A stretch of 64,000 nt of DNA from Providencia rettgeri (GTDB lineage: Bacteria > Pseudomonadota > Gammaproteobacteria > Enterobacterales > Enterobacteriaceae). The notes beneath the pieces were generated by a model. It worked only from the letters and a program-made list of their open reading frames with translations. It had not been told where the DNA came from and searched no databases. The DNA lies in assembly GCF_013255915.1 (NCBI RefSeq), contig NZ_CP053896.1, positions 248,001 to 312,000 on the forward strand, written 5' to 3'. The stretch's first letter is position 1. Every line of letters starts with the position of its first letter. Of the stretch, positions 17,178-33,724 are shown piece by piece. The translations under genes and the position numbers were made by a program.

Positions 17178-17225
17178 AGAGTTATTCCAATAAGTACAAG
17201 TTTAAGTTATTGCTAACAGGAACTG

Positions 17226-17297
17226 AAAGCACTTCATTGTAAATTTAAAGTGCTTTAATATAGGCTATTAGGCGGTTAAACCGCGACTGCAAAGCAG
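17226..17297. promoter_or_regulatory. ampC-ampR intergenic control region
   Basis: Three symmetric elements lie between the divergent genes: AAAGCACTT/AAGTGCTTT (17226-17234 and 17248-17256, a 9-bp stem in the ampC leader), the 13-bp palindrome GCGGTTAAACCGC (17272-17284), and CTGCaaaGCAG (17287-17297). The middle one is the best candidate AmpR operator core; binding itself is inferred from position and symmetry. Confidence 0.55.
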
Positions 17298-17359
17298 TAT
17301 GCATGCTTTCGGTCATTATTTAAAACGATATAAAATTCGATGAGGTAAAAGAAAATCTT

Positions 17360-18245: not shown

Positions 18246-18290
18246 TCGGTGCTATACTATAAATAGAAATAGCACCGATATTTAATTTAT
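18246..18290. terminator. Terminator between ampR and the fimbrial region
   Basis: TCGGTGCTAT (18246-18255) and ATAGCACCGA (18269-18278) form a perfect 10-bp stem with A/T-rich flanks on both sides (tatttaatttatt to the right, aaaaagaataataa to the left). It can serve ampR and the convergent regulator gene on the minus strand. Confidence 0.75.
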
Positions 18291-18319: not shown

Positions 18320-18607
18320 TTAGAATACCAAAGCTTCAGCAGAGAAATAATTCTTTTTATTAACAGAGAGCTCTGTACTATTAATATCCGTAATGGTTTC
18401 AGTAAAGAAATAGGTCGGCGAAACATTAAATATTTGTGCCAACTGGTAAATAGTATCGACATGAATATTAACCTCACCATTTTCATAGCGTGATTGGTGT
18501 TGTTGGCTAATGCCTAACAATATGCTTAAATCTTTACCACTCATTCCGTGACTTTCTCTTAATGATCTTATTTTTAAACCGACGGATTTGGATATTTTTC
18601 GTTTCAT
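18320..18607 (-). CDS. MrpJ-like XRE regulator, type B, last gene of fimbrial operon 2
   Basis: The 95-residue protein has a Cro/C1-type helix-turn-helix (about residues 8-66) with SQQHQSRYENGEVNIHVDTIY. It resembles MrpJ, the regulator at the end of the Proteus MR/P fimbrial operon, which represses motility while fimbriae are made. Together with the 106-residue protein at 26927-27247 it forms a subgroup (QQHQSR..., IHVDT) that differs from the shorter QQQSRYERG proteins. The fimbria-flagella switch role is inferred. Confidence 0.78.
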   Translation of the reverse strand: MKRKISKSVGLKIRSLRESHGMSGKDLSILLGISQQHQSRYENGEVNIHVDTIYQLAQIFNVSPTYFFTETITDINSTELSVNKKNYFSAEALVF

Positions 18608-18707
18608 GATTTTCTCTCTAATTTATTTTAAATATTATAATGTGAATATAATTAAATATTTTTAATGTAATTGGATCTTCTAGTGATATGTATTATTACT
18701 TAATTTA

Positions 18708-18929
18708 TTAAAAATCATGGGACTGAAAGAAGGTTTTAATATCAATTTCAAAATACGTTGCATACTGGAACAATCTATCTAAAGTAATTCTATTTACTCC
18801 TCTTTCATATCGTGACTGTTGTTGTGGGCTGATGCCAATAACCTCGGATAGTTCATTAACTGAAAGTCCATTCGTTTTCCGATAATAAAGTATTTTTTTG
18901 CCAATTAGGTGAGATGTTGAATAAGGCAT
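18708..18929 (-). CDS. MrpJ-like XRE regulator, type A
   Basis: The short 73-residue protein is almost entirely a helix-turn-helix domain (LSEVIGISPQQQSRYERGVN then RITLDRLFQYATYFEIDI). It is paralogous to the proteins at 20115-20399 and 27278-27556 and lacks their longer C-terminal tail. It lies 189 bp after the extra adhesin gene and about 100 bp before the type B regulator. Probable fimbrial-operon-linked regulator; target unknown. Confidence 0.75.
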   Translation of the reverse strand: MPYSTSHLIGKKILYYRKTNGLSVNELSEVIGISPQQQSRYERGVNRITLDRLFQYATYFEIDIKTFFQSHDF

Positions 18930-19118
18930 ATATACTCCTATAATTATATTTTTTATTTCTAACTAAACACGATGAAAGATTACCTCTCTATCTTAACCAT
19001 TTTAATAAAATAGTAAATTTGCTATTTATCAATTGTTCGATGATATTTTTCGATGTTAGCAATAAAAATCAAGTTATAAATAAATTAATATCTTTTTATG
19101 ATTAATGTTGGATGCTAT

Positions 19119-20105
19119 TTATTCATATCTTATGTTAACCGAAGCTGTTGAGTTTGCAGTTCCTGCAGTTATATTATTAGCAGTCTTAATATATCTAGCT
19201 TTCCAATTAAAAATATAATCGCCACCTGCAACATTGTTTTGCAAAGTGAACTTTGAGTTGAGCTTTATCGGGTTACTATTTCTATCCAATAATTGAATGG
19301 CGACTCCGGTTGCTTGCCCTTGTCCAGACAATTTAATCTTCCCTGTATTGATATCAACATACCCAGCACTACTTGTGACTGTCACTTTTAGATTGGTGCC
19401 TGCAGCGCAGCTTAATGTAATGGGTATATTGACACTATTGCTAGTAGAGCCAATAGCTTTAAACTGAGTATCATACCAAGTCCCTAAGTTAACATTGTAA
19501 CTTGTCGCTTTTGTTGAGCACTTTAATACATTAATTTTGATAGTACCTGCTGGAATATTCAGCGATGTTAAATTCCACGTACTGTTATGTGGCGCAGGGT
19601 TACGCTGTGTTAGTCTTCCCACATGCCCTGCCTTTAAATTTCCCCCTTGTGTGACTTGTCCTGTTTTTTTTATGGTAATCGTCCAATATGGGTTAGCAAT
19701 AGTCCAAGCGGCTGGGTTAGCTGCTGTTGGTGGTCCATAACGTGTATTTAAAAAACCGATATTGGTTGCTTTCACTTGAATGCTGATGCCCGGTATATTA
19801 CTGGCTGCAATTTTATTGCCGTTTGGTACCCAACCATTGACATAGTCAGCGTGTAAGTAGGCATCACCACATTGACCATTACTTTTTGGGCCTGAAAATG
19901 TATTGACTTGTGAGCCTTTAAAATTGACCTGAATAGTGGCTAAATCGCGAGCCCCTGTATCATCATATTGCAGCGAATAGGTTCTTGCTGGTACATTCAC
20001 CACAACATTCCGTAAATTAGGATTTTGAATACAGGCCGCTTGTGTATATGCAGAATAAGCAAAAACCGAGCCTATTATTACCAGTAAAATTTTCTTTTTA
20101 GTCAT
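19119..20105 (-). CDS. Extra fimbrial tip adhesin-like protein in operon 2
   Basis: The 328-residue secreted protein has a signal peptide (cleavage after YTQA-AC), an N-terminal receptor-binding-like domain (about 25-190) and a C-terminal pilin domain with NIPITLSCAAGTNLKVTVTS and terminal SVNIRYE. The pilin domain is very similar to those of the adhesins at 21480-22451 and 28819-29802, while the N-terminal domain differs much more. It sits between two type A regulators, outside the normal gene order, so it looks like an inserted second adhesin. Ligand unknown. Confidence 0.78.
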   Translation of the reverse strand: MTKKKILLVIIGSVFAYSAYTQAACIQNPNLRNVVVNVPARTYSLQYDDTGARDLATIQVNFKGSQVNTFSGPKSNGQCGDAYLHADYVNGWVPNGNKIAASNIPGISIQVKATNIGFLNTRYGPPTAANPAAWTIANPYWTITIKKTGQVTQGGNLKAGHVGRLTQRNPAPHNSTWNLTSLNIPAGTIKINVLKCSTKATSYNVNLGTWYDTQFKAIGSTSNSVNIPITLSCAAGTNLKVTVTSSAGYVDINTGKIKLSGQGQATGVAIQLLDRNSNPIKLNSKFTLQNNVAGGDYIFNWKARYIKTANNITAGTANSTASVNIRYE

Positions 20106-20114
20106 AAAATATCC

Positions 20115-20399
20115 TTAACATTTACTTTTTTTATTTAAATATTTTTCTTCTGCATGCTCAATCTCATTGATCTCTCTAGAATTGAAAATAAAAAAAGCCA
20201 TAATATCAATTTCAAATATCTTAGAGTAATGATAAAGCCTATCAATATTAATTCGATTAATACCACGCTCATAGCGTGACTGTTGTTGTTCACTCACACC
20301 CACGATATTAGATAAATTTTCTAATGTCATGCCTTTCATTTTTCGGTAATAGGTGATTTTATTGCCAATTATTTTTGATATAAGATAGTAATTAGGCAT
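20115..20399 (-). CDS. MrpJ-like XRE regulator, type A
   Basis: The 94-residue protein has a helix-turn-helix domain (LSNIVGVSEQQQSRYERGIN then INIDRLYHYSKIFEIDI) and a charged C-terminal tail. It begins about 45 bp after the minor pilin gene of operon 2 and ends 9 bp before the extra adhesin gene, so it is probably co-transcribed. Similar to fimbria-linked MrpJ regulators of Proteus; function inferred. Confidence 0.76.
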   Translation of the reverse strand: MPNYYLISKIIGNKITYYRKMKGMTLENLSNIVGVSEQQQSRYERGINRINIDRLYHYSKIFEIDIMAFFIFNSREINEIEHAEEKYLNKKSKC

Positions 20400-20443
20400 A
20401 CCGCTTTCCCCTATTAAAACTGATATAATTAAAACAAACTTAC

Positions 20444-20941
20444 TTACTGATATGTAAATGTAAATTCTAAATGGCTTTTAAATGAACCTGCAACCATACC
20501 ACTTCCATAACCCGAGACTCTTGCCGATAATGGGATTTCAACATTTCGCGTTTGAGTATTAACATTCGCGGTAATGGTATCGCCATTTTTTATTGTTGTT
20601 TTATTGCCGGTATTGGCTAAATTTAATGCCACATTTTTCGCCGTACCATTATTAATAAAATGTTCAGTTATTGTTGAGTCTGGCGTACCTGATATTTTCA
20701 TTACAGCTTTGGTGGTGCCTACAGGGCAATTTTTTAGCTTCACGGAAAAATCAACCCACGGAGATTTTTGCGTATCTTTGATATTCCAAATATTAATTTT
20801 TTTCAAATCGATTAAATAATTATTTTTTTCAACCTCACAAGGAGCAGCAATAACGACGCCATGCACTTTAATATTTGCTGTTAGCCCAAATGCAGTTAAA
20901 GAACAGCTCATTAGTGATAGTAATAGGATAAAATGTCTCAT
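20444..20941 (-). CDS. Minor fimbrial subunit, operon 2
   Basis: The 165-residue precursor has a signal peptide (MRHFILLLSLMSCSLTAFG) and a pilin fold with two cysteines (APCEV and KNCPVGT). The paralogue at 27780-28277 has the same length and order. The ATG at 20941 is chosen over the in-frame 21010, which would overlap the previous gene and precede the signal peptide. Likely adaptor or tip-proximal subunit, assembled in the outer-membrane fimbria by the chaperone-usher pair. Confidence 0.82.
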   Translation of the reverse strand: MRHFILLLSLMSCSLTAFGLTANIKVHGVVIAAPCEVEKNNYLIDLKKINIWNIKDTQKSPWVDFSVKLKNCPVGTTKAVMKISGTPDSTITEHFINNGTAKNVALNLANTGNKTTIKNGDTITANVNTQTRNVEIPLSARVSGYGSGMVAGSFKSHLEFTFTYQ

Positions 20942-20954
20942 ATTATTTTCTCTT

Positions 20955-21470
20955 TTATAAATAGGTAATTGTTGCCGTAATATTGGCGGAAATAGTTCCC
21001 GGAGTGGCATTACCTAATGAGCTAAAGGCACGTGTGCGTAATGGAATATTAATATTCGCTTGCCCATTTGTCGGAACTTGTAATACTTTTTGGTTACCTA
21101 AAGCGGTTGTTCCATTACCATTTTGTAGTTGAACGGCTAGGTTTTTAGCCGTACCTTGATTTTTGTATAAGCTTGCTGCATCCGCAGTATCTGCGGTTCC
21201 TGTAAACGTCAGTTTTACTTGGTTAATAAAAGATGAACAATTATTAAGGCTAATATTAAATGTGTTCCAGTTAGAACCTGAACTCGCATTACGAAATACA
21301 TCAGCAGAAATATTTTTCAGGTCAATATCAATATTATTCCCACCGGTAATATTGCAAGTTGCGGCTCTAATATTTCCGGTAAAGTTCAATGTCACTGTGC
21401 TAGCAGCAAATAAATTCCCACTGAATATTAAGCTACTAAGTAAAAGTAAATTTTTAGATATTTTTTTCAT
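20955..21470 (-). CDS. Minor fimbrial subunit (FimF/MrpG-like), operon 2
   Basis: The 171-residue precursor has a signal peptide ending NLFAAS, a donor-strand-like N terminus VTLNFTGNI, a Cys pair (AATCNI and NNCSS) and the pilin C terminus ISANITATITYL. Its paralogue is at 28293-28808. It lies 9 bp after the adhesin gene and 13 bp before the next minor subunit gene, in one operon. Confidence 0.85.
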   Translation of the reverse strand: MKKISKNLLLLSSLIFSGNLFAASTVTLNFTGNIRAATCNITGGNNIDIDLKNISADVFRNASSGSNWNTFNISLNNCSSFINQVKLTFTGTADTADAASLYKNQGTAKNLAVQLQNGNGTTALGNQKVLQVPTNGQANINIPLRTRAFSSLGNATPGTISANITATITYL

Positions 21471-21479
21471 TTTTTATTC

Positions 21480-22451
21480 CTACTCATAGCGAATATTTAC
21501 AGTAGCAGAGGCATTCGCTGTACCCGGCGTGATATTATCTGCCGTTTTGATATAGCGAGCTTTCCAATCAAACATATAATCACCAGCCGGCACATTATTT
21601 TGCAGGCTATTTGTGGTGTTCAATTTGATTGGATTATTATTTTTATCCAACAATTGTATTGCGACACCAGTGGCGCTATCAGGTCCCGTTAGAGCTAATT
21701 TTCCTGTAGCGGTATCTTCATATTTAGAACTTGTGACCGTCGCTTTAATATTGGTACCCGCTGCACATGTTAAGGTAATTGGAATATCTACAGGCGCACT
21801 GGTTGAGCCTATATTAGGGAATTGTGTATCATACCAATCTTGCATATCAATATTGTAGGTTGACTGGTTGTTTTTTAATGAACAGCTAAGTACATTGATA
21901 CGAATCGCATTTGCAGGCATGTTTAAAGTTGTTAAAGTCCAAGTTACATTTGTTGGCGCACGGTAAGTTGTAGTTAACCTTGCAACATTCCCCGCTCTTA
22001 ATGTGCCACCTTGTACTACCGAACCGAGTTTTTTTACCGTAATAGTCCAATGTGTTGTTAATATATTATAATTAGTGTTGTTTCTATCCCATAATGCATT
22101 AAAATCTCCAATACCTGCGGTTGTAACAGAAATACCAATACCAGAAATATTAGATAGAGCAACTTTATTGGCATTAGGTGACCAGCTATTAATAAAGCTA
22201 CCAGTTAAGTATGAAGTAGCACAAGTACTCGCATCACTAACTACCCATTGAGATGTAGATGAAAAATTGGTGTAGAGAGAACCTAAGTCTCTGGAGGTAT
22301 TGTCATCATATTGAACGTTATATACTGCACTCGGTATATTAGCTATTTTGTTATTTAAATTTGGGTTTAAGGTACATGCTGCATTAGCATATCCTGAGTA
22401 TAAATATATACAACTCACTGCCAATATTGATTTATAAATGAAATTTTTCAT
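21480..22451 (-). CDS. Fimbrial tip adhesin-like protein, operon 2
   Basis: The 323-residue precursor has a signal peptide (cleavage YANA-AC), an N-terminal putative receptor-binding domain (about residues 26-185) and a C-terminal pilin domain (NIKATVTSSKYEDT..., ending SATVNIRYE). The two-domain layout and length are those of fimbrial tip adhesins. It directly follows the usher gene, as its counterpart does in operon 1. Receptor specificity is unknown and the N-terminal domain differs strongly from the two other adhesins here. Confidence 0.8.
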   Translation of the reverse strand: MKNFIYKSILAVSCIYLYSGYANAACTLNPNLNNKIANIPSAVYNVQYDDNTSRDLGSLYTNFSSTSQWVVSDASTCATSYLTGSFINSWSPNANKVALSNISGIGISVTTAGIGDFNALWDRNNTNYNILTTHWTITVKKLGSVVQGGTLRAGNVARLTTTYRAPTNVTWTLTTLNMPANAIRINVLSCSLKNNQSTYNIDMQDWYDTQFPNIGSTSAPVDIPITLTCAAGTNIKATVTSSKYEDTATGKLALTGPDSATGVAIQLLDKNNNPIKLNTTNSLQNNVPAGDYMFDWKARYIKTADNITPGTANASATVNIRYE

Positions 22452-22464
22452 TATTTACTCCTTA

Positions 22465-24975
22465 TTATCGGCAAACAGCAGTTGTTTTATATAACCCCAT
22501 ATAATTCGATATACCTGCTAAGTTATAATTTACTTGGCATTGTTGTTTATCGTTATATTGAATAATAAAATTGCCATTTTCAGCTAAACCAGATAAATAA
22601 ATTTCGCCATCATTGCCTACTATATTATTTAGCTGTGGATTATCTTTAAATATGGCCTGAGCACCGAAAGGCACGGGTTTACCATCAGCAAAACTTAATA
22701 TCATGATGGCACGGTACCCGACATTCGCTGCAAAATTGGCTTTCACCAGTGCACCACGACTTGGAGCAACACTTTGGCTGGTTAATTCCATTTCGGTATT
22801 TTCAGGCAACCCCGAGGTATCGATATCAATCACATTTTTGCGATAAGCCGTGACATAAGGTACTAGCGCATAACCTTGGTTATTAGTGACAACCCCTGCT
22901 TGGTTTAATACTGGTACATCACCTGCATCTGGGATTTCAACAATAGCCGCGGTTTCGCCTAATTGTTGACCGAGTACAAGGCCGCCAGAGTGAGCCACTA
23001 AGCTACCATTAACACCGTAATAAAGGTTATAGTTGTCTTTGCTATAGCCTGTTCCACCTGAAATTTCACCATATTGGCCTTTATAAGAAGCGTTCATATT
23101 ACCGCTCGTACCTTGTTCTTGAGTGGTGAAACCCTGCTGCATGCTCCAATTTAAGCGGTTATTAAGTTGTGAAGCGGAAAGCCCAATACTGCCTGTGCTT
23201 GGGCCGTTGCTGCTACTATTACTGTTAAAGTTGTAATAGAAGGTGTTATCAAACACGGTAAATGGCACACTGACAGAGAAGGCAAGCTGATGATCATCTT
23301 CACTTTTCGTACGGCTACCGGAAGTATATGAGTAGCTATTGGTATTTTTGTTATAGGTATAATTCAAACTATAACTAATGCCTTGCCAACTGTTGTTATA
23401 ACCCACGGTGGCAGACTGAGTTTTACGGTCACTATTCCAGTAGTCTTCATTGATATAGCCTACGGAGATTGAACCAAAGTTATCCCCTAAGTTTTGGCTG
23501 AGGGTGATCTCACCGCGATTACGGCGGCGTTCAATTTCAGGGATATAGTTTGTATTTCTATAGCCGTCAAAGACTTCCGCTAAACTGTAAAAACCTTTAG
23601 TGGAATAACGATAACCAGCCAATGCGATATTAGTACCAATATCGTTGATATTTTTGTTATAGCGGAAACGGTATGATTGGCCTTTTTCCTTAACGTCATT
23701 ACCTAGCGTTGAATTTGCATGGGTAACGTCAATGGATAACGCACCAAATCGCCCAAGGTTTTGGCCTGCGCCGATGGAGTAAGATTGGTAATGCTCACTC
23801 ACTTGGCTACCACCATAAGCGGTAATACCATAAGGTAGACCATAGATTAAGGTAAATTGGCCAAATTTTGTTTTATCAATGCTACTGTCATAAGCGCGGT
23901 ATTCCCCGCCCGTTACGCTATAAGAAAAATATCCTTCACGTTGTAATACAGGTAATGAAGCAAAAGGAACGATTTGATATTGCTCGCTACCGTTGGATTC
24001 TTTGATGGTGACATGCAAATCACCGCTTCCCCCTGTTGGGTATAAGTCGTTGATTTCAAAAGGGCCCGCAGCCACCTCGGTTTGGTAGATAATGTAACCA
24101 TTTTGGCGGATCGTCACCTGTGCGTTGCTACGAGCAATCCCACGTACAACGGGCGCATAGCCGCGTAAACTCTCAGGGGACATATCATCATCTGTCGCAA
24201 GCTGAGCACCCCGAAATGGCACGCTATCAAAAACCATCGAAGGTGAGACACTATCCCCCAAGGTCAACTGACTTTTGATGCTATTAATACCGCGTGATGC
24301 GTAGGTATAGATGGTATCCCATTTACCGGATTGGTCGGTACTACTTGACCATGTTGTGTAATTGCGTAGCCGCCATGCTCCAATATTTAAGCCAGGTCTT
24401 AAATTTACATAATGGGATGTGTTATCCGAACCACTACTTTTACGATCGTAATTTTTAGAGCCGTTATAGCTGTAATTTAATAGCAGTGCGTTGATGCCAT
24501 TATCGATATTGGCTAAGTCAACGTAACCCCTTGGGTTTCTATCCAATGCGATTTGGGGGATGCTTAAATATAAACGTTGAGAATCAAACTCAAAATTACT
24601 TGTGGCATCAGGGATCGCTGCAAGGTTTACACAGTGACTTCCTGCGGTTTGTAATTCAGGGTATTCCGCTGTTTTGATACCAAACTCTTTAATATCAGCA
24701 AGTGATAAACATGGAACTAATTGGTTACGGCTATTTTTTTCAAATTTAAGATTTTTAGCACCAATTAAGTTGGTGTTGACATAAATATCAACATAGTAGT
24801 CACCGGCTAATTGCTCATTATTCTCGAACTGTGACAAATCAACCGAATCTTTATTCGGTAGCTCTAAAAAGTCAGGATCAAAGTAGACATTATTTTCTGT
24901 TTTTTCTTCAGCATATAGCGATGCGGTATAGCCTAAATATAATAGTAGGCCTAGAGATATTTTATTTATTTTCAT
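22465..24975 (-). CDS. Outer-membrane fimbrial usher, operon 2
   Basis: The 836-residue precursor has a signal peptide (ends SLYAEE), an N-terminal chaperone-binding domain (FDPDFLELPNKDSVDLSQF), the large 24-strand barrel with a plug, and C-terminal domains ending in the conserved Cys pair (QQCQVNYNLAGI ... TAVCR). It exports and assembles pilin subunits. ATG 24975 is chosen so the start matches its paralogue at 32339; an in-frame TTG four codons earlier is possible. It is highly similar to the other usher over the full length. Confidence 0.93.
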   Translation of the reverse strand: MKINKISLGLLLYLGYTASLYAEEKTENNVYFDPDFLELPNKDSVDLSQFENNEQLAGDYYVDIYVNTNLIGAKNLKFEKNSRNQLVPCLSLADIKEFGIKTAEYPELQTAGSHCVNLAAIPDATSNFEFDSQRLYLSIPQIALDRNPRGYVDLANIDNGINALLLNYSYNGSKNYDRKSSGSDNTSHYVNLRPGLNIGAWRLRNYTTWSSSTDQSGKWDTIYTYASRGINSIKSQLTLGDSVSPSMVFDSVPFRGAQLATDDDMSPESLRGYAPVVRGIARSNAQVTIRQNGYIIYQTEVAAGPFEINDLYPTGGSGDLHVTIKESNGSEQYQIVPFASLPVLQREGYFSYSVTGGEYRAYDSSIDKTKFGQFTLIYGLPYGITAYGGSQVSEHYQSYSIGAGQNLGRFGALSIDVTHANSTLGNDVKEKGQSYRFRYNKNINDIGTNIALAGYRYSTKGFYSLAEVFDGYRNTNYIPEIERRRNRGEITLSQNLGDNFGSISVGYINEDYWNSDRKTQSATVGYNNSWQGISYSLNYTYNKNTNSYSYTSGSRTKSEDDHQLAFSVSVPFTVFDNTFYYNFNSNSSSNGPSTGSIGLSASQLNNRLNWSMQQGFTTQEQGTSGNMNASYKGQYGEISGGTGYSKDNYNLYYGVNGSLVAHSGGLVLGQQLGETAAIVEIPDAGDVPVLNQAGVVTNNQGYALVPYVTAYRKNVIDIDTSGLPENTEMELTSQSVAPSRGALVKANFAANVGYRAIMILSFADGKPVPFGAQAIFKDNPQLNNIVGNDGEIYLSGLAENGNFIIQYNDKQQCQVNYNLAGISNYMGLYKTTAVCR

Positions 24976-25001
24976 GATAAAGCCCAACTTATTTTATAGT
25001 T

Positions 25002-25670
25002 TTATATTTTCTTTTCGAGTGCTTCTGGTGCTGCACCATAATCATTAATAACTTCCCATTTAATTGTTCCATTAGTATTTGAGTTATTAACCTCGAAAGT
25101 CGCACTTGAGAAAGGTGCCGCATAAGAAACATCATTAGCCTTTGTTCCGTTAAAGCTGATGCTCTGGAAATTCATAAAATAAGGTGTTGGGTTTTTAACC
25201 GTAATTTTATTTCCAGATTTAGACCACACTAATTTTTTTTGCTCTTCAATAAAATTAACATCTTTTAATGCTTTAGGGCGATAAATTAATTTCATTTGCG
25301 TTTTAAAGGCAATTTGTAATGAGTTTTCTGTTCTTTCTGTTGCTGGAATAGTTTTTATATTTAACCAGAACAATGACTCTCTATCATTAGGTAATTTATT
25401 TTCTGTTAAAAATATTCTAAGCGCATTAGTTCTATCTGCATTTAGCCTAAATAATGGTGGTGTGATAGAAAAATCAGACTGTTTTTTTTCATCTATATTA
25501 TCTATCCAAGATTGAATCAAATAAGGGATTTTATCTGGATTTTCTACGCTGATGCTGACATCTTTGTTTCCCTCATTATAAATAACACGGGTTCCACCAA
25601 TAATAACACCAGCATTCGCAGTATTTATTAGTGCAAGTAAGGAAATGAAAATATAGATAATAGATTTCAT
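25002..25670 (-). CDS. Periplasmic fimbrial chaperone, operon 2
   Basis: The 222-residue precursor has a signal peptide (ends NTANA-G) followed by the PapD-like immunoglobulin domain: GGTRVIYNEGNKDVSISVEN, RTNALRIFLTENKLP and SLFWLNIKTIP, with the subunit-binding Arg and Lys (TRVIY; FKTQMKLIYRP). It holds pilins in the periplasm and hands them to the usher encoded next. Its paralogue at 32365-33033 has the same length. Confidence 0.92.
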   Translation of the reverse strand: MKSIIYIFISLLALINTANAGVIIGGTRVIYNEGNKDVSISVENPDKIPYLIQSWIDNIDEKKQSDFSITPPLFRLNADRTNALRIFLTENKLPNDRESLFWLNIKTIPATERTENSLQIAFKTQMKLIYRPKALKDVNFIEEQKKLVWSKSGNKITVKNPTPYFMNFQSISFNGTKANDVSYAAPFSSATFEVNNSNTNGTIKWEVINDYGAAPEALEKKI

Positions 25671-25729
25671 AATACCACCATTGATTATTATTAGATAAGG
25701 CTTAAGTCCTTTTAAACCTTATTTATTAC

Positions 25730-26254
25730 TTAGTTATAATTGATTGTGAAAGTTGCTGTCGCATTTGCAGGACCAGGAGTCACTGTGTCAGACTTAGCAA
25801 TATAACGTGCTCTGAAATCTAAATTATTTTCCACATTTTGTTGTAATGGATATGCTTTAGAGGCAGTAAATAATGGAACAATTTTATTCGTATCATCAGT
25901 AATTTGAATTCCAACGCCAGTTGCAACGCCAGTTTCTTCTTTTAATTTAATAACTTCATCATCACCAATATAAGAATCAGCATCAAATTTTACTGAAGCC
26001 GTTGTTACTGTAGCAGGGCAATTAATTAATTTGATCGTAAATTTAGTTGCTGCCGCTGTACTTCCTGCGTTTGGTAATGCTTTTTTAGATACTTGTCCTA
26101 AGTTTACTTTTAGTGCATCAGAGCCAGCTGCTAATTCACATGCTTGGTCGATGATTTCACCTGTAAAGTCGATAGTACCATCTGCTGCTAATGCATTATT
26201 AACAGCAAAGATTGAGGTTGCAGCAATTAATGATGCAAGTAAGTTCTTTTTCAT
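25730..26254 (-). CDS. Major fimbrial subunit (pilin), operon 2
   Basis: The 174-residue precursor has a signal peptide ending NNALAADG, then GTIDFTGEIIDQACEL with the first pilin Cys, KLINCPATV with the second, and the penultimate-Tyr C terminus FTINYN. It is a type 1-like major pilin forming the fimbrial shaft. First gene of the operon, behind a predicted promoter and leader hairpin at 26288-26355; ggag lies before the ATG. Its paralogue is the pilin at 33091-33621. Confidence 0.92.
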   Translation of the reverse strand: MKKNLLASLIAATSIFAVNNALAADGTIDFTGEIIDQACELAAGSDALKVNLGQVSKKALPNAGSTAAATKFTIKLINCPATVTTASVKFDADSYIGDDEVIKLKEETGVATGVGIQITDDTNKIVPLFTASKAYPLQQNVENNLDFRARYIAKSDTVTPGPANATATFTINYN

Positions 26255-26287
26255 TTGTTTTTCTCCAAAAGATAATTATTTATTTTT

Positions 26288-26318
26288 ATTGAGTAGGTGG
26301 AATTACCAATTACTCAAT
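26288..26318 (-). promoter_or_regulatory. Leader stem-loop of fimbrial operon 2
   Basis: ATTGAGTA (26288-26295) and TACTCAAT (26311-26318) pair perfectly, with additional GGT/ACC pairing inside. The hairpin lies at the predicted 5' end of the mRNA, between promoter and pilin start, and has a weaker counterpart at 33655-33688 before operon 1. A regulatory role (RNA stability or protein binding) is inferred. Confidence 0.6.
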
Positions 26319-26326
26319 TGGAGAGT

Positions 26327-26355
26327 ATTTTGAAACTATTTATTAAAATAAACAA
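26327..26355 (-). promoter_or_regulatory. Predicted promoter of fimbrial operon 2
   Basis: On the minus strand TTGTTT (26350-26355), a 17-bp spacer and CAAAAT (26327-26332) form a sigma-70-like promoter. The same hexamers, spacer length and flanking tactc are conserved at 33696-33724 before operon 1. Conservation between otherwise diverged leaders supports the call. Confidence 0.6.
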
Positions 26356-26926
26356 GTTTTGTAAAATTTGGTAAAATATAATTAAATTTTAAAGTATTTA
26401 ATTTTTTTAATTAAGTTAACACATTATAAGAGAAGGATTAATACACTATATTGAGCTAAGTTAAATATAATTTTTTTTGATTTTTTCACTAAAGTTAAAT
26501 AACGATATAAAACTAAGAATAATTACAAGGAGGGATATAAATTTAATTTATCTCTCATATGGTGATAATTTGGGATTATAAGGTTTTGACTTATTAGACC
26601 ACATACAGTGGATGTTGTATTTTTACTATCGAAAAATGAAATAATAGTATAGATATCGGATTTAGCAGGTCTAAATGTGCTATTTATTTGGTTTTTTATA
26701 GAGAAAATGGTGTTGCCATTCAGTAAATGAATAAAAATAGGGGTAACTTTGGTTTTAAGGAAACATTAAATGACTATCAAAATGTTCTTATTAAATTCAA
26801 TTAAGTAGCCTTAATTTTAATTCGCTATGTTAAGGCTACGTGAGAGATTTCTTACTTATAGATACCTTTAGCTATAGTTGTCATGACTATAAATTTCCTA
26901 TAAATAAATTTAGTTTTGTATTAACG
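26356..26926. other. AT-rich spacer between fimbrial operons
   Basis: No gene was recognised in these 571 bp. Near the left operon's end lies a perfect inverted repeat, GTAGCCTTAA (26805-26814) with TTAAGGCTAC (26830-26839), which could be a weak terminator for the regulator gene ending at 26927, although no T run follows. The rest is AT-rich, as is typical for silenced (H-NS-type) fimbrial control regions. Confidence 0.45.
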
Positions 26927-27247
26927 CTATTTGTATAAATTGAAATTATGTTCTGGTGATAATAGGCTTTCTGCTTGCAACATTTTTTTTCTATTCTGTT
27001 TATTACTCATTGTGTTAACTGGTATTGGGATAGCAAAGTCAACAATTAACTCTTGAATATCAAGGTCGAGTATTTCGGAAATAGAATATAACGTATCAAC
27101 ATGAATTCGGATTTCGCCTAATTCATGGCGAGATTGATGCTGCTGACTAATCCCAAGTAATGTACTGAGTTGCTGAATACTCATATTTTGGTCTTTTCTT
27201 AGTGTGCGGATCCGCGCTCCGACAATTTTAGAGGTATTTTTTTTCAT
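26927..27247 (-). CDS. MrpJ-like XRE regulator, type B, last gene of fimbrial operon 1
   Basis: The 106-residue protein has a helix-turn-helix domain (LSTLLGISQQHQSRHELGEI then IHVDTLYSISEILDLDI) and a basic C-terminal tail. It is the type B paralogue of the protein at 18320-18607. It lies 30 bp after a type A regulator, so each fimbrial operon ends in an A-B regulator pair. It resembles MrpJ of Proteus; repression of motility or cross-control of fimbriae is inferred. Confidence 0.77.
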   Translation of the reverse strand: MKKNTSKIVGARIRTLRKDQNMSIQQLSTLLGISQQHQSRHELGEIRIHVDTLYSISEILDLDIQELIVDFAIPIPVNTMSNKQNRKKMLQAESLLSPEHNFNLYK

Positions 27248-27277
27248 ACGATAACCAATAATGATTAAGTAAAAATG

Positions 27278-27556
27278 CTATAAAGAAAATGATTTTTTAA
27301 TTTCATAACCATTTTTAATTTTTGTTTTTTCATCTTCACTAAATGAAAAGAAATAAATTATATTAATATCAAAATAATTAGAATATTGCTTTAGCCTATC
27401 TATCGATATTCGATTATTTCCTCGTTCATAACGTAGTTGCTGTTGCTCACTAATTCCAACAGTTTTAGCAAGGGCAGTAAGAGAGAGTCCTTTATTTTTA
27501 CGCAATGATTTTATTTTATTACCAATAACCGCAGAGACAGGGTAATAATTGCTCAT
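27278..27556 (-). CDS. MrpJ-like XRE regulator, type A, operon 1
   Basis: The 92-residue protein has the domain LAKTVGISEQQQLRYERGNN then ISIDRLKQYSNYFDINI and a lysine-rich tail. It is paralogous to the proteins at 20115-20399 and 18708-18929, with Leu replacing Ser in the usual QQQSRYERG. A gap of about 220 bp separates it from the last pilin gene, so it may have its own promoter. Confidence 0.76.
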   Translation of the reverse strand: MSNYYPVSAVIGNKIKSLRKNKGLSLTALAKTVGISEQQQLRYERGNNRISIDRLKQYSNYFDINIIYFFSFSEDEKTKIKNGYEIKKSFSL

Positions 27557-27779
27557 TATTTAACCTCATTGATTTTTTACTCTTAATTGGTATAGGGTTA
27601 TATCTTTAACATCACGATATATTTATCAGGTATCCTTTATCCTATCTTGATTTAAATCATAAGTGATCAAACTATGTTTTTTATATTGAAAATATTAAAT
27701 ATTATCGTCATCTCAAAATTTGAACCATTCTAATTAAGATGGTTTATTTTAGATTATCAATATAAAGACACTAGATTTA

Positions 27780-28277
27780 TTAATGATAAACAAATGTAAA
27801 ATCAAGATGGCTATTAAATGAACCACTTGTCATGCCTGATCCATAGCCCGCCATTCTCGCTGATAGTGGAATATCAACTTTGCGGGTTTGTTCATTAACC
27901 GGCACCGTAATTTTTTCACCATTTTTTATCGTGGTTTTATTTGCATGGTGGGCTAAGTTTAATGCGACGTTTTTAGCGCTCCCCGTATTGACAAAATAAT
28001 CAGCGGAGGTCGAGTCAGGCGTGCCTTTAATCTCCATAATAGCTTCTTTGGTACCCATAGGGCAATTTTTCAATTTAATTGAGAAATTAACCCATGGTGA
28101 AGTTTGTGTATCCCGAATATTCCAAACATTCACTTTTTTCAAATCAATTAAATAATTTGTGGTTTCTAATTCACAAGGCATGGCGGTGACATAGCCATGT
28201 ACATTGATATTAATGTGTGGGTCTGCTGCCAATACGGGGCTGGAAGCAAGACAGAATAACAACACTATTTTCTTCAT
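27780..28277 (-). CDS. Minor fimbrial subunit, operon 1
   Basis: The 165-residue precursor has a signal peptide (MKKIVLLFCLASSPVLAA), two pilin cysteines (MPCELE, KNCPMGT) and C terminus HLDFTFVYH. It is the counterpart of the protein at 20444-20941. It is separated by 15 bp from the preceding minor subunit gene. Likely an adaptor or termination subunit; the exact position in the fibre is unknown. Confidence 0.83.
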   Translation of the reverse strand: MKKIVLLFCLASSPVLAADPHININVHGYVTAMPCELETTNYLIDLKKVNVWNIRDTQTSPWVNFSIKLKNCPMGTKEAIMEIKGTPDSTSADYFVNTGSAKNVALNLAHHANKTTIKNGEKITVPVNEQTRKVDIPLSARMAGYGSGMTSGSFNSHLDFTFVYH

Positions 28278-28292
28278 ATTATATGCTCCGGT

Positions 28293-28808
28293 TTATAAAT
28301 AGGTGATGGTGGCGGTAATATTGGCTGAAATAGAGCCAGCCACGACATTACCTGCCATGCTAACAGCCCGCGTACGCAGTGGAATAGCGACATCAGATTG
28401 CCCATTTAAGGGCACTTGTAATATTTTTTGATTACCTAACGGTGTGGCACCATCACCGCTTTGTAATTGCACAGCTATATTTTGAGCAGTACCTAGGTTT
28501 TTATATAAGCTAGTCGTATCAGCTGTGTCCGCAGTGCCTGCAAATGTCAGTTTGATTTGATTGATAAATGACGAACAATTATTTAAATGAATATCAAAAT
28601 TTCTCCAGTCGGACCCTGTCTGCGCGCCACTAAATATATCAATAGGTAAACGTTTTAAGTCAATATCAATATTGTTGCCGCCAGAGATATTACAGGTAGC
28701 GGCTTTGATATTGCCTGTAAAGTTAACGGTAATATTTGACGCTGCAAATGAATGAGATGACATCGCAAGTAAATTAATCGATAAAATAGTGAATAATATT
28801 TTCTTCAT
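28293..28808 (-). CDS. Minor fimbrial subunit (FimF/MrpG-like), operon 1
   Basis: The 171-residue precursor has a signal peptide ending HSFAAS, donor-strand segment ITVNFTGNI, Cys pair (AATCNIS, NNCSS) and C terminus ISANITATITYL. It is the counterpart of the protein at 20955-21470. The ATG at 28808 is chosen because it starts the signal peptide and matches the paralogue; the in-frame ATG at 28835 overlaps the adhesin gene. Confidence 0.85.
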   Translation of the reverse strand: MKKILFTILSINLLAMSSHSFAASNITVNFTGNIKAATCNISGGNNIDIDLKRLPIDIFSGAQTGSDWRNFDIHLNNCSSFINQIKLTFAGTADTADTTSLYKNLGTAQNIAVQLQSGDGATPLGNQKILQVPLNGQSDVAIPLRTRAVSMAGNVVAGSISANITATITYL

Positions 28809-28818
28809 ACGGTTATTC

Positions 28819-29802
28819 CTATTCATAGAGCACATTAATTGTCACGGTGCCATTAGCGGATCCGGGTGTCACTTTATCGGCAGTTTTAATGTAGCGCGCT
28901 TTCCAACCAAAGATATGCTCGCCTGCTGCGACGTTACTTTTTATTGTTTGCTTGCTACCTAAAGGAATGGGGTTTTTATTTGCATCAACAAGCTGTATGG
29001 CGATCCCTGTCGCTTTATCTGTACCCGATAAGCCTATGTGCCCCTGAGATGCATTAATAACACCACTGGTACCGACTACTGTCGCTTTTATATTGGTGCC
29101 CGCTAAGCAGTTTAAGGTAATTGGAATGTCAACTTCGCTACTGGTGCTGCCAACAGTAGGAAATTGAGTATCATACCAATCACCTAAGTTAATGGTAGGA
29201 ACAGTATTTTTTAAAGTACAACTGAGAACTACAATTTTAAAATTCACAGGTACTCTTAGTGTTGAAAATGACCATCGGCTATAACTAGGTAGCGAGTTCG
29301 TTTGGTAGAGTTCTGCAAGGTTGCCTGACTTTAGGTCGCCTGATTGAATTACCCGGCCATCCTTTCTTAAACGTACCGCCCAACTGATTCCTCCTGGAGA
29401 GGCCCAAGCTAAGTATGCTTTGTTATAAGGAAGGCTTCTTTTCCAGTTAAATGCTGAATTGATTCCTGCCGCGGGTATTGAAATATGTATACTTACCCTA
29501 GCAATATTCGTGTTTGCATAACCATCGGTGCCTTGACTCCAGCCATTAGAATATTGCCCGTATATCGTGCTATAACCGCATTGATCTCCATTAGATGTCG
29601 TTGCATTAGCCGCACTTCCCATCGACATGACCTTATGATATATCTCTTTTGTACTATCATCATCATACTGAAGGTAAATCGTCTCGGAAGGTAGAGTAGT
29701 AATACGATTCTTGAATTGAGGATTTTGATTGCAGGCTGCACTTACATACCCGGTATATAAACATCCCACCGCTAATACAGAGTTGACTATTAATTTTTTC
29801 AT
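28819..29802 (-). CDS. Fimbrial tip adhesin-like protein, operon 1
   Basis: The 327-residue precursor has a signal peptide (cleavage YVSA-AC), a putative receptor-binding domain (about 25-185) and a pilin domain (CLAGTNIKATVVGTSGVINA, C terminus GTVTINVLYE). The N-terminal domain differs strongly from the two adhesins of operon 2, while the pilin domain is conserved. The ATG at 29802 avoids overlap with the usher gene and starts at the signal peptide. Receptor unknown. Confidence 0.8.
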   Translation of the reverse strand: MKKLIVNSVLAVGCLYTGYVSAACNQNPQFKNRITTLPSETIYLQYDDDSTKEIYHKVMSMGSAANATTSNGDQCGYSTIYGQYSNGWSQGTDGYANTNIARVSIHISIPAAGINSAFNWKRSLPYNKAYLAWASPGGISWAVRLRKDGRVIQSGDLKSGNLAELYQTNSLPSYSRWSFSTLRVPVNFKIVVLSCTLKNTVPTINLGDWYDTQFPTVGSTSSEVDIPITLNCLAGTNIKATVVGTSGVINASQGHIGLSGTDKATGIAIQLVDANKNPIPLGSKQTIKSNVAAGEHIFGWKARYIKTADKVTPGSANGTVTINVLYE

Positions 29803-29816
29803 TATCGATTTCCCTC

Positions 29817-32339
29817 TTATCGGCATACCGCAGTAGTTTTATATAACCCCATATAATCTGAAATACCGGTTAAGTTATAATTTACTTGGCATTGCTGTTT
29901 ATCGTTATATTGAATAATAAAACTGCCACTTTCGGCTAAGCCGGATAAATAAACTTCGCCATCATTACCCACGAGATTATTGAGCTGCGGGTTATCTTTA
30001 AATATGGCCTGCGCACCGAATGGCACTGGCTTTCCATCAACAAAGGTTAAATTCATAATGGCACGATAACCGACATTGGCGCTAAAACTGGATTTCACTA
30101 GCGCCCCACGGCTTGGGGAGACTGACTGGCTGGTGAGTTCCATTTCCGTGTTGTCAGGTAACGCCGAAGTATCAATGTCGATGGTATTTTTACGGTAGGC
30201 TGTCACGTATGGCACTAACGCATAACCTTGGTTATTGGTCACTACACCCGCTTGGTTTAGTATTGGTACACCTCCTGCATCGGGCACTTCTACCAATGCG
30301 GCGGTTTCACCTAATTGTTGCCCTAACACTAACCCGTCCGCGTGGGCGACAAGGCTGCCATTAGTTCCGTAGTACAGGTTATAGTTATCTTTGCTATAGC
30401 TCGCACCACCAGAAATTTCACCATACCTGCCTTTATAGGTGGAGTTCGCATTACCAGAACTGCCTTGTCCCTGATCGGCTAAACTTTGTTGCATGCTCCA
30501 ATTTAAACGGTTGTTCAGGTGAGATGCTGATACACCGATGCTACTCGAACTGGAGTCTCGGCTACTGTGGTTACTGGCAAAGTTAATGTAGGCGGTATCT
30601 TCAAACAAACTGAACGGAATATTGACCGAAAAAGTAAATAAATGGTCTTCATCACTGTATTTTTTTGCCCCAGCACTCTGCGAATAGCTGCTGGTATTCT
30701 TGTTATAGGTGTAATTCAGCCCATAACTGATCCCTTGCCAGCTATTGTTATAGCCAAGGGTTGCTGACTGTGTTTTGCGGTCACTATTCCAATAGTCTTC
30801 ATTAACATAACCCATTGAAATAGAACCGTAAGTATCCCCTAGGTTTTGGCTGAGGGTGATTTCACCGCGATTACGGCGGCGTTCGATCTCAGGGCTGTAG
30901 GTGGTATCACGGAAGGTGTCAAACACCTCGGATAAACTGTAATACCCTTGGGTTGAATAGCGGTAACCTGCCAAAGCAATATTGGTGCCGATATCATTGA
31001 GGTTTTTGTTATATCTAAAGCGGTAAGACTGACCACGTTCTTTGCTGTCATCACGCATTTTGGCGTGAGATTGGGTAATATCAATAGACAGCGCCCCGAA
31101 GCGCCCCAAGTTTTGCCCAGCACCTATCGAATAAGATTGGTATTTTTCACTGAACTGACTTCCTCCGAACATAGTGATGCCATAGGGTAAACCGTATACC
31201 AAAGTGAACTGACCAAATTTGGTTTTATCTACATGGCTATCATATGAACGGTATTCACCTGCGGTGGTGCTATAAGATAAATAACCCTCACGTTGCAGCA
31301 CGGGGAGTGAGGCAAAGGGCACAATTTGCACCTGTTCGCTGCCGTTCGACTCTTTTATCGTCACATGCAAGTCACCGCTGCTGCCCGTTGGGTAGAGGTC
31401 AGTGATTTCAAAGGGGCCTGCTGCTACATCAGTTTGGTAGATGGTGTAACCGTTTTGGCGAATGGTGACCTGTGCGTTGCTGCGGGCTATCCCACGCACA
31501 ATTGGCGCATAGCCGCGCAGACTTTCAGGGTACATATCATCATCGGTGGCGAGCTGAGCCCCACGAAACGGTACACTGTCAAATACGTCTGACGGAGATA
31601 CGCTGTCTCCCAAGGTTAGTTGGCTTTTTATGCGGTTGATCCCACGGGAGGCGTAAGTATAAATAGTATCCCATTTATTGGGCTGCCCTGTGCTGTTGGA
31701 CCACGTGGTATAGTTGCGCAGACGCCATGCCCCAATATTTAAGCCGGGGCGTAAATTGACGTAGTTTGAGGTGGTGTCTTCTCCACCTTTACGATCGGTA
31801 TTTTTAGAACCGCTATAGCTGTAATTCAGTAATAGGGCGGTAATACCGTTATCGATATCTGCAAGGTCAACATAACCCCTCGGGTTTTTCGCCAGCGCGA
31901 TTTGCGGAATACTGAGGTATAACCGTTGTGAATCAAATTCAAACTGGCTTGTTGCGTCAGGAATGATTGCTAAATTGACGCAGCCTGTTTGGCTATTTTG
32001 TAGCTCAGGATAATCTGCAATTTTAATATCAAAGCTTTTTAAATCATCCAAAGTTAAGCAAGGAACCAGTTTGTTTTCAGTATTTTTATCAAATTTTAAA
32101 CTTTTTGCCCCGATTAAGTTGGTATTGACATAAATATCAACGTAATAATTACCAGCCAATTGTTGGTTATTTTCAAATTGGCTTAAATCGACCGCATCTT
32201 TATTAGGCAACTCTAAAAAATCAGGATCAAAATATACATTTCCCTCTGTTGTATTATTGCCGATGGCATTTTCAGCGTATAAAGGTACCGTATAGCCTAA
32301 ATAAATAAGTAGGCTAAAGCATATTTTATTTATTCTCAT
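29817..32339 (-). CDS. Outer-membrane fimbrial usher, operon 1
   Basis: The 840-residue precursor has the signal peptide MRINKICFSLLIYLGYTVPL then YA, the N-terminal FDPDFLELPNKDAVDLSQF domain, a central barrel and plug, and a C-terminal Cys pair (QQCQVNYNL, TAVCR). It is a close full-length paralogue of the usher at 22465-24975; the long conserved barrel contrasts with several divergent loops. It assembles and exports the pilins of operon 1. Confidence 0.93.
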   Translation of the reverse strand: MRINKICFSLLIYLGYTVPLYAENAIGNNTTEGNVYFDPDFLELPNKDAVDLSQFENNQQLAGNYYVDIYVNTNLIGAKSLKFDKNTENKLVPCLTLDDLKSFDIKIADYPELQNSQTGCVNLAIIPDATSQFEFDSQRLYLSIPQIALAKNPRGYVDLADIDNGITALLLNYSYSGSKNTDRKGGEDTTSNYVNLRPGLNIGAWRLRNYTTWSNSTGQPNKWDTIYTYASRGINRIKSQLTLGDSVSPSDVFDSVPFRGAQLATDDDMYPESLRGYAPIVRGIARSNAQVTIRQNGYTIYQTDVAAGPFEITDLYPTGSSGDLHVTIKESNGSEQVQIVPFASLPVLQREGYLSYSTTAGEYRSYDSHVDKTKFGQFTLVYGLPYGITMFGGSQFSEKYQSYSIGAGQNLGRFGALSIDITQSHAKMRDDSKERGQSYRFRYNKNLNDIGTNIALAGYRYSTQGYYSLSEVFDTFRDTTYSPEIERRRNRGEITLSQNLGDTYGSISMGYVNEDYWNSDRKTQSATLGYNNSWQGISYGLNYTYNKNTSSYSQSAGAKKYSDEDHLFTFSVNIPFSLFEDTAYINFASNHSSRDSSSSSIGVSASHLNNRLNWSMQQSLADQGQGSSGNANSTYKGRYGEISGGASYSKDNYNLYYGTNGSLVAHADGLVLGQQLGETAALVEVPDAGGVPILNQAGVVTNNQGYALVPYVTAYRKNTIDIDTSALPDNTEMELTSQSVSPSRGALVKSSFSANVGYRAIMNLTFVDGKPVPFGAQAIFKDNPQLNNLVGNDGEVYLSGLAESGSFIIQYNDKQQCQVNYNLTGISDYMGLYKTTAVCR

Positions 32340-32364
32340 TTTAACAACCTAAATCAATTTTGGG

Positions 32365-33033
32365 CTATATTTTCGCTTCAGCCAGTTCAGATGCGGAGCC
32401 GTAATCATTAATGACTTCCCATTTCACCGTACCATGATTCGCAGCATCGTTAATCTCAAAAGAAGTGCTAGAAAACGGTGCAGCATAAGAGACGTCATTC
32501 GCTTTTTTACCGTTGAAGGTAATACTTTGGAAATTCATAAAATACGGTGTTGGGTTTTTTACTGTAATCATATTGCCTGTTTTTGACCAAGTTAATTTTT
32601 TTTGTTCTTCAACAAAATCAACATTTTTAATTGCAGAAGGACGATAAATTAATTTCATTTGCGTTTTAAAGGCAATCTGCAATGAATTTTCTGTTCGCTC
32701 CGTTGCTGGGATTGTTTTTATATTTAGCCAAAATAATGATTCTTTATCTTTCGGTAAGGTATTCTCTGTTAAAAATATTCTTAGCGCATTGGTTTTATCT
32801 GAGTTTAATCTAAATAATGGAGGTGTAATAGTAAATGCGGATTGCTTATTTTCATCAATGCTATCAACCCATGATTGAATTAAATAAGGGATTTTATCAG
32901 GGTTTTCGACACTAATACTGACATCCTTATTTCCCTCATGATAAATAACACGAGTGCCGCCAATAATAACGCCTGCATGGGCTAAATTAATCAATAAAAA
33001 TGAAGAAATAAAAAAATAAACTAAGCGTTTCAT
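32365..33033 (-). CDS. Periplasmic fimbrial chaperone, operon 1
   Basis: The 222-residue precursor has a signal peptide ending NLAHA-G and PapD-like features (GGTRVIYHEGNKDVSISVEN, KTNALRIFLTENTLP, FKTQMKLIYRP). The ATG at 33033 is chosen because it gives the same length and start as its paralogue; the in-frame ATG at 33072 would add 13 residues before the signal peptide. It partners the adjacent usher. Confidence 0.92.
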   Translation of the reverse strand: MKRLVYFFISSFLLINLAHAGVIIGGTRVIYHEGNKDVSISVENPDKIPYLIQSWVDSIDENKQSAFTITPPLFRLNSDKTNALRIFLTENTLPKDKESLFWLNIKTIPATERTENSLQIAFKTQMKLIYRPSAIKNVDFVEEQKKLTWSKTGNMITVKNPTPYFMNFQSITFNGKKANDVSYAAPFSSTSFEINDAANHGTVKWEVINDYGSASELAEAKI

Positions 33034-33090
33034 ATTAGTACCATTGAATAGAGGAATAAGGTTTAAATCCATTTAAACCCTAAAAGCCTA

Positions 33091-33621
33091 TTAGTTATAA
33101 TTGATAGTGAAGGTTGCGGTTGAGTTTGCTTGACCAACGCCAACGCTATTAGACATTGCAATATAACGAGCGGTAAAATCTAAATTATTTACTGTCTTTT
33201 CTTTTAATGCATACGCGCTAGATTCAGTAAATAGTGGAACGATTGTTCCTGTAACGTCCTGAATTTGAATACCAACATTTTGTGCCGTTGTCGCTGCAGT
33301 AGGGTCGGTTAACTGGAGTACACTATTATCACCTGCATAACTGGTGGCATCAAATTTAACCGTTGCGCTAGTCACGGTTTGCGGGCAGTTTTCTAATTTG
33401 ATGGTAAATTTAGTTGCTGCTGCGGTGCTACCTGTACTAGGTAATGCCGTTTTAGAGATTTTCCCTAAGTTTACGGTAAATGCATCAGAACCGGTTGCAA
33501 ACTGACAAGCCTGATCGGTAATTTCACCTGTAAAATCTATCGTTCCATCAGCAGCTAATGCATTATTAATGGCAAAAACAGACGATGCCGCAATTAAATA
33601 GGCAAAGACATTCTTTTTCAT
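33091..33621 (-). CDS. Major fimbrial subunit (pilin), operon 1
   Basis: The 176-residue precursor has a signal peptide (ends NNALAADG), GTIDFTGEITDQACQF, LENCPQTVTS and C terminus FTINYN, the features of a type 1-like major pilin. It is paralogous to the pilin at 25730-26254, with the conserved ends and the most divergence in the middle. First gene of the operon, with SD cttggaga before the ATG. Confidence 0.92.
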   Translation of the reverse strand: MKKNVFAYLIAASSVFAINNALAADGTIDFTGEITDQACQFATGSDAFTVNLGKISKTALPSTGSTAAATKFTIKLENCPQTVTSATVKFDATSYAGDNSVLQLTDPTAATTAQNVGIQIQDVTGTIVPLFTESSAYALKEKTVNNLDFTARYIAMSNSVGVGQANSTATFTINYN

Positions 33622-33654: not shown

Positions 33655-33688
33655 GATTGAGCCAGTGAAAATATTCAGTTACTCAGTC
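33655..33688 (-). promoter_or_regulatory. Leader stem-loop of fimbrial operon 1
   Basis: gattgag (33655-33661) and ctcagtc (33682-33688) form a stem with one wobble pair, at the same place relative to the promoter as the stronger hairpin of operon 2. The loop sequences differ, so the pairing rather than the sequence is kept. Confidence 0.5.
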
Positions 33689-33695
33689 GGGGAGT

Positions 33696-33724
33696 ATTTT
33701 GACTTTTATTTTAAAAATAAACAA
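33696..33724 (-). promoter_or_regulatory. Predicted promoter of fimbrial operon 1
   Basis: Minus-strand TTGTTT (33719-33724), 17-bp spacer, CAAAAT (33696-33701), followed by tactccc. Same architecture as the promoter of operon 2 at 26327-26355. Confidence 0.6.

Follow-up and report, generated by a model that had tools for sequence, protein, structure and literature searches.

The stretch analysed here, called the window, is 64,000 nucleotides (nt) of a 4.74-Mb Providencia genome (C1:248001-312000). Open reading frame (ORF) listing, Pfam searches and all-versus-all BLASTP identify at positions 18320-33621 two complete chaperone-usher operons on the minus strand, op2 upstream and op1 downstream. 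Op2 encodes, in order, the major pilin, the chaperone, the usher, a tip adhesin, two minor subunits and two small regulators of types that we call A and B. Op1 has the same order through the minor subunits, followed by A, a second adhesin gene (adhX), another A and B. The pilin, PapD-like chaperone, usher and two-domain tip adhesin of a chaperone-usher system are in place. By BLASTP, the two operons share 81% identity in the usher, 80% in the chaperone, 68% in the pilin, 67 and 65% in the minor subunits, 44% in the adhesin, 54-56% in A and 44% in B. This agrees with the initial annotation, which described two tandem paralogous operons, each ending in an A-B pair, with five regulators in about 9 kb (here about 9.2 kb); all five match HTH_3, and the two types form separate clades. 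Its gene order and coordinates hold throughout, except that it missed adhX (19119-20105), which interrupts the regulator block of op1. The type A motif that it gave, QQQSRYERG, is not exact in op2 A. The features of op2 are as follows.

33694..33724, minus strand: op2 promoter element TTGTTTA-N16-CAAAATAC, candidate -35/-10 (pattern drawn from the two window sites)
About 33655-33687, minus strand: TTGAG...CTCAA-like dyad ahead of the pilin gene, resembling the op1 leader dyad
33091..33621, minus strand: major pilin (PF00419)
32365..33072, minus strand: chaperone, start may be 33033-33036 (PapD_N, PapD_C)
29817..32339, minus strand: usher (PF00577, PapC_N, PapC_C)
28819..29826, minus strand: tip adhesin, start may be 29802 (PF00419 in the C-terminal half; 44% identity to the op1 adhesin)
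28293..28835, minus strand: minor subunit 1, start may be 28808 (PF00419)
27780..28277, minus strand: minor subunit 2 (PF00419)
27644..27659, minus strand: conserved block TGATTTAAATCAAGAT, candidate A-B regulatory site (read off an alignment of the gap)
27278..27556, minus strand: type A regulator, 92 amino acids, QQQLRYERG (HTH_3; A clade)
26927..27247, minus strand: type B regulator, 106 amino acids, QQHQSRHELG, C-terminal AES tail (HTH_3; B clade)
26794..26850, minus strand: inverted repeat 3' of op2, possible terminator without a T run (repeat search; absent from the terminator-scan list)

Op1 comprises the following features.

26325..26355, minus strand: op1 promoter element TTGTTTA-N16-CAAAATAC (source site of the pattern)
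26288..26318, minus strand: TTGAG...CTCAA dyad in the leader (repeat search, leader alignment)
25730..26254, minus strand: major pilin (PF00419)
25002..25670, minus strand: chaperone (PapD_N, PapD_C)
22465..24987, minus strand: usher, start may be 24975 (PF00577, PapC_N, PapC_C)
21480..22451, minus strand: tip adhesin (PF00419)
20955..21470, minus strand: minor subunit 1 (PF00419)
20444..20938, minus strand: minor subunit 2, frame open to 21010 (65% identity to op2 minor subunit 2; FimG-like below cut-off; no Pfam match)
20115..20399, minus strand: first type A regulator, 94 amino acids (HTH_3; A clade)
19119..20105, minus strand: adhX, second tip adhesin (domain search, BLASTP, locus comparison, AlphaFold model)
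18708..18929, minus strand: second type A regulator, 73 amino acids, no C-terminal tail (HTH_3; A clade)
18320..18607, minus strand: type B regulator, 95 amino acids, QQHQSRYENG, C-terminal AEA tail (HTH_3; B clade; five-helix XRE model)
18246..18278, minus strand: perfect 10-bp inverted repeat 3' of B, possible terminator (repeat search; absent from the terminator-scan list)

The regulators are proteins of about 70-110 amino acids with an XRE-type HTH_3 domain, and their place within the fimbrial operons is judged by strand and by a gene order common to the window and related loci; their NCBIfam matches were all below cut-offs. They resemble MrpJ of Proteus mirabilis and its paralogues (those of mrp, mrp', atf and others), which are likewise small XRE/helix-turn-helix proteins; their recognition helix is QQQ.SRYE.G-like, and many are encoded near fimbrial genes. 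MrpJ itself was identified by its position after MrpH (which matches PDB 6y4f) in the operon beside an integrase gene. The available text of one review (PMC9820224) terms MrpJ MarR-like; the MrpJ sequence used here matches HTH_3, of the XRE type.

The tree was built from 103 of 168 rows and 74 columns, with A and B rows from 10 loci and, as outgroup, 13 of the 15 XRE stretches fetched (L135 and L137 were unused); no named phage repressor is among the rows. All five regulators fall in a MrpJ-like clade of 87 rows (95/92), which also holds MrpJ and its paralogues and excludes the 13 other XRE proteins of this genome. This confirms the initial annotation in placing them in the MrpJ-like family, and the clustering with unrelated XRE proteins that the annotation had named as refuting it was not seen against these 13. 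Three weak profile matches (L025, L115 and L118) also lie outside the clade. Type A forms a clade of 29 rows (97/92) and type B one of 19 rows (96/93), both with Proteus members and the latter with one orphan of this genome. Profile scores separate the same groups, the lowest A member scoring 96 bits against 80 for the best non-member and the lowest B member 94 against 76. The possibility that the regulators are MrpJ orthologs proper is ruled out, as MrpJ groups separately with the mrp' paralogue and the gene at C1:4041393 (99/97), its nearest relative in this genome. A and B are thus two other subfamilies, and the window further differs from the known paralogues in having two types per operon and, in op2, 223 nt ahead of A that contain a conserved block.

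Type B differs from type A at its C-terminus. In 19 aligned B proteins the C-terminal Glu is invariant within an AE/SE motif, MrpJ carries AQA at the same position, and no such tail was found in the three A proteins of the window or in A of P. mirabilis. The B monomer model has a five-helix core that matches XRE controllers such as C.BclI and C.AhdI, with QQHQSRYEN as its third helix; the tail is unstructured (predicted local distance difference test, pLDDT, under 50 in part), and we infer from the model that it may be an interface.

The two types also occur together. Both are present in 20 of 24 Providencia genomes and both are missing from the other four. Orthologs of B were taken at E <= 3.7e-31, the best matches in the four other genomes lying between 2.0e-15 and 1.1e-12 (all 24 genomes match B at a limit of 1e-8). 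Limits set from the profile score gap, 1e-22 for B and 1e-26 for A, were used for the Providencia count of A and for 392 genomes sampled evenly across the family, the latter with at most 12 or 13 candidates scored per genome. In that sample A and B are found in the same seven genomes, from 2 of 154 genera, the second genus presumably being Proteus. No genome with one type alone was found among the 24 Providencia and 392 family genomes, which are related and not independent.

The locus was compared with 19 further Providencia stretches of about 20 kb (L059-L077) and 8 Proteus loci; the Providencia loci L044, L045 and L052-L058 overlap the genomes of the 19 and were not recounted. In the window the array is bordered by glnG on one side and by a lysR/class C beta-lactamase pair on the other. 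The glnG product, nitrogen regulator NR(I), and the beta-lactamase are above their NCBIfam cut-offs, and the LysR-type regulator is PenR-like, below cut-off. The array adjoins lysR in all 19 stretches and has glnG on its far side in 16 (partly in L073), the other three stretches ending short. The tandem layout with two A-B pairs is found in 10 of the 19 and a single pair in 9, and up to three operons or parts of operons are seen per stretch. Op1 ends in A-B in 18 of 19; the exception, L060, lacks the second A and has B after a broken adhX. In three of the four Providencia genomes lacking A and B, about 8 to 53 nt separate lysR (broken in G019) from glnG, an empty site; in the fourth, G015, lysR was not found. 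The glnG|lysR-bla junction is thus the site of a Providencia fimbrial array of zero to at least three operons, depending on the genome. The genes next to the array in the window, at 16035-18241, are the class C beta-lactamase gene and its divergent LysR-type regulator. In L060 (G011) the op1 usher, adhX and lysR appear fragmented, perhaps through assembly errors or decay.

In ten tandem genomes we asked of each gene copy whether it is nearer to the same-position copy elsewhere or to the other copy in its own genome. The test left out L059 and wrote internal stops as X; one usher is not intact in L072 and in L075, and one adhesin is missing from L073, which leaves 128 usher and 153 adhesin comparisons. 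The regulators keep their position (A in 175 of 180 comparisons, B in 180 of 180). Values for the structural genes are 46-58%: pilin 93/180, chaperone 82/180, usher 60/128, adhesin 89/153, and minor subunits 92/180 and 86/180. With one genome per clade, A is positional in 38 of 40 comparisons and B in 40 of 40, and the structural genes from pilin to minor subunit 2 in 20, 13, 14, 20, 14 and 14 of 40. A quick tree of the ushers intermixes op1 and op2 copies. The leader is not positional (96/180), and the core promoter element is in between (112/180, with 21 ties). The stretch from the leader to the last minor subunit therefore appears, from these sequence comparisons, to have been exchanged or homogenised between the operons, and the ends not.

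The recognition helices are also position-specific. The helix reads QQQS in all 35 op1 A proteins and QQQL in all 10 op2 A proteins, and SRYENG in all 19 op1 B and SRHELG in all 10 op2 B proteins; these position-specific residues hold in all 74 copies read, with which the window's five agree. In the A proteins of third operons, seven in number, the sequence departed from the motif used for the search. It could be argued that the regulators are passive hitch-hikers, kept by linkage and positional because conversion tracts stop at the last structural gene, and the low identity of the regulators between operons would by itself limit recombination. Conservation of the recognition helices across species argues otherwise, as does the full length of nearly all regulator copies listed (copies too broken for listing would escape), and we consider this explanation very improbable. 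That these helices are kept while the structural genes lack positional identity, together with the joint occurrence of A and B, would also suit an arbitration in which each A-B pair acts as a unit, possibly a heteromer, favouring its own operon and repressing its neighbour so that one fimbria is made at a time. A neighbour is, however, unneeded for retention of the pair, as the 9 stretches with a single A-B pair keep both types; we regard such arbitration as unlikely.

The element TTGTTTA-N16-CAAAATAC lies at about -100 of both pilin genes and is plausible as a -35/-10 promoter with a 17-nt spacer. No third exact match was found in the 4.74-Mb genome, which has 2 one-mismatch and 42 two-mismatch matches. 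The TTGTTTA anchor is present in 34 of 34 orthologous upstream regions (28 from Providencia and 6 from Proteus; L059, of the same species, the damaged L060, and Proteus L047 and L050 were excluded), and the second box in Proteus is GATAAT or AATAAT. A matrix built from these regions, whose members score 29-59 by construction, gives only the two sites in the window at a threshold of 10. In each operon the leader dyad lies immediately downstream of the predicted fimbrial mRNA start; these are dyads whose arms are conserved in most of 21 leaders (of the 34, picked for having a dyad) with no compensatory pairs; the dyad may be a DNA operator or a 5' stem-loop. Rfam gave no match above gathering scores, and the terminator scan listed neither inverted repeat after the B genes.

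The gap before op2 A (27557-27779) measures 223 nt and that before the first A of op1 44 nt. The op2 gap contains TGATTTAARTCAAGAT, and 6 of the 10 other tandem stretches, including one from the window's species, have an exact copy at the corresponding location. The conserved block at 27644-27659, which we take to be CRP/FNR-like, has 2 matches with at most two mismatches in the window, one of them exact, where 0.12 are expected. A gap of this length with a conserved block, compared with 44 nt in op1, suggests an independent start for A-B of op2.

Phase variation by an invertible promoter was considered and rejected, as only weak, AT-rich inverted repeats lie upstream of the pilins. There is also no unassigned ORF of at least 120 amino acids between 18242 and 34173, hence no unassigned recombinase-sized ORF. 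The locus thus differs from phase-variable fimbriae of the MR/P type, which have an adjacent recombinase and an invertible promoter.

We propose that A and B are operon-specific feedback regulators of the MrpJ/AtfJ type, perhaps also affecting motility, a reading by analogy to which we give a probability of roughly 55%. It draws on membership of the MrpJ-like clade, the joint occurrence of the two types, the nearness of MrpJ-like genes to most ushers of this genome, the shared promoter element, positional identity, the recognition helices and the precedent of MrpJ and AtfJ. Reviews (PMC9820224, PMC11599158) describe MrpJ as an activator of its own operon and a repressor of flhD; AtfJ is reported there to be required for expression of atf and to affect motility and adhesion. 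Transcription of an operon would yield its A and B proteins along with the fimbriae, and these would feed back on that operon and set its expression, as MrpJ is reported to do at mrp and AtfJ at atf. Effects on other fimbriae, and perhaps on flhDC, might be added to this, which would keep down the number of fimbriae made at once and reduce swimming during adherence. A and B would probably divide the work, since B has a MrpJ-like C-terminal tail and A has none.

A stricter version, in which A and/or B act chiefly on flhDC and autoregulation of the fimbriae plays a minor part, would follow from their belonging to the same family as MrpJ, from the presence of flhDC in this genome, and from the inhibition of flhDC by MrpJ described in the available text of PMC11599158. 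We think such a motility switch improbable: A and B lie outside MrpJ's own group, a search of the flhDC stretch for the promoter element that the two operons share found none, and with 29 genes of the genome in the MrpJ-like clade, a special motility role of these five is unneeded.

Several observations also weigh against feedback by A and B as proposed. The matrix gave no site of at least 8 bits in the 8-kb flhDC stretch, so motility control is without sequence support here, and none in 14 other fimbrial stretches covering 15 of the 17 other ushers. With up to two mismatches the element is near chance (46 matches against 37 for a reversed-pattern control), generic promoter and terminator scans were at or below shuffles, and co-occurrence is the sole tie of A and B to the element. 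The order of the deep tree is unsure (36 of 100 inner branches open, on 74 columns). As for positional identity, it extends to the 200 nt that precede the promoter (173/180), and the regulators of the two operons are only 40-57% alike; fixity may thus be passive, as such diverged ends may no longer recombine.

The extra adhesin AdhX may give op1 an alternative tip. It is 53% identical to the op1 adhesin (BLASTP), and its AlphaFold model (mean pLDDT 83; predicted template modelling score 0.71) matches FimH and CupB6 over the full length with E values to 1e-11 and template modelling (TM) scores of only 0.33-0.41, which leaves the domain arrangement unsure. The model is closer to the receptor domains of Abp2D and MrkD (TM by target 0.64-0.70). 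In the window and in 9 further Providencia stretches of the 19, the gene after the first A is adhX-like (broken in L060), and four stretches (L065, L073, L075 and L077) have such a gene after op2 B. Its counterpart in Proteus is the sole adhesin of the operon, between A and B.

This Proteus operon (P. mirabilis ATCC 29906, L042/L121) is one of the closest known systems, with related pilin, chaperone, usher, minor subunits, A, AdhX and B; it also shares the promoter anchor. All eight Proteus loci have the order pilin-chaperone-usher-minor-minor-A-adhX-B, with no adhesin after the usher. They differ from the window in that the operon is single and its one adhesin lies between A and B, and no match to glnG or lysR-bla was found in them.

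Fimbria-encoded MrpJ paralogues, also beside tandem operons, are already known: the available text of PMC3521468 describes 13 mrpJ paralogues and tandem mrp operons in Morganella morganii. The window resembles the tandem mrp/mrp' of M. morganii and P. mirabilis in its duplicated fimbrial operons with mrpJ-type genes (same source, in part). Unlike the window, mrp/mrp' are accompanied by mrpI recombinase genes. At the level of titles and abstract openings, with subscription literature mostly uncovered, we found no publication that describes this Providencia locus, an A/B pair that is obligatory, or cassettes that are exchanged while their regulators stay fixed. What is new here is that the regulators keep their positional identity across ten tandem genomes, whereas the structural genes do not. 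We tentatively suggest, as a possibility, a modular array in which exchangeable structural cassettes lie between fixed control ends, each position having a dedicated A and B pair that would probably act jointly and with its own DNA specificity.

This genome encodes 19 ushers, and a MrpJ-like gene lies within 6 kb of 14 of them (manual count). Other fimbrial operons of the genome are preceded by two more adjacent pairs of MrpJ-like genes (C1:4088625/4088888 and 4137696/4138030; L084 3566-4143, L085 11673-12228). For P. mirabilis ATCC 29906 the counts are 17 ushers and 20 regulator-profile matches; at 1e-5 the Providencia genome has 30 such matches, 29 of them inside the MrpJ-like clade. A genome with 19 ushers and 29 regulators of this clade bears on how such bacteria pick one fimbria among many. 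If the array is modular, recombination can swap or diversify pilus structure and leave the assignment of switch to position undisturbed. The locus amounts to a natural experiment in which closely related cassettes carry two regulator pairs whose recognition helices are fixed and position-specific, so that specificity might be traceable to a few residues and one promoter element.

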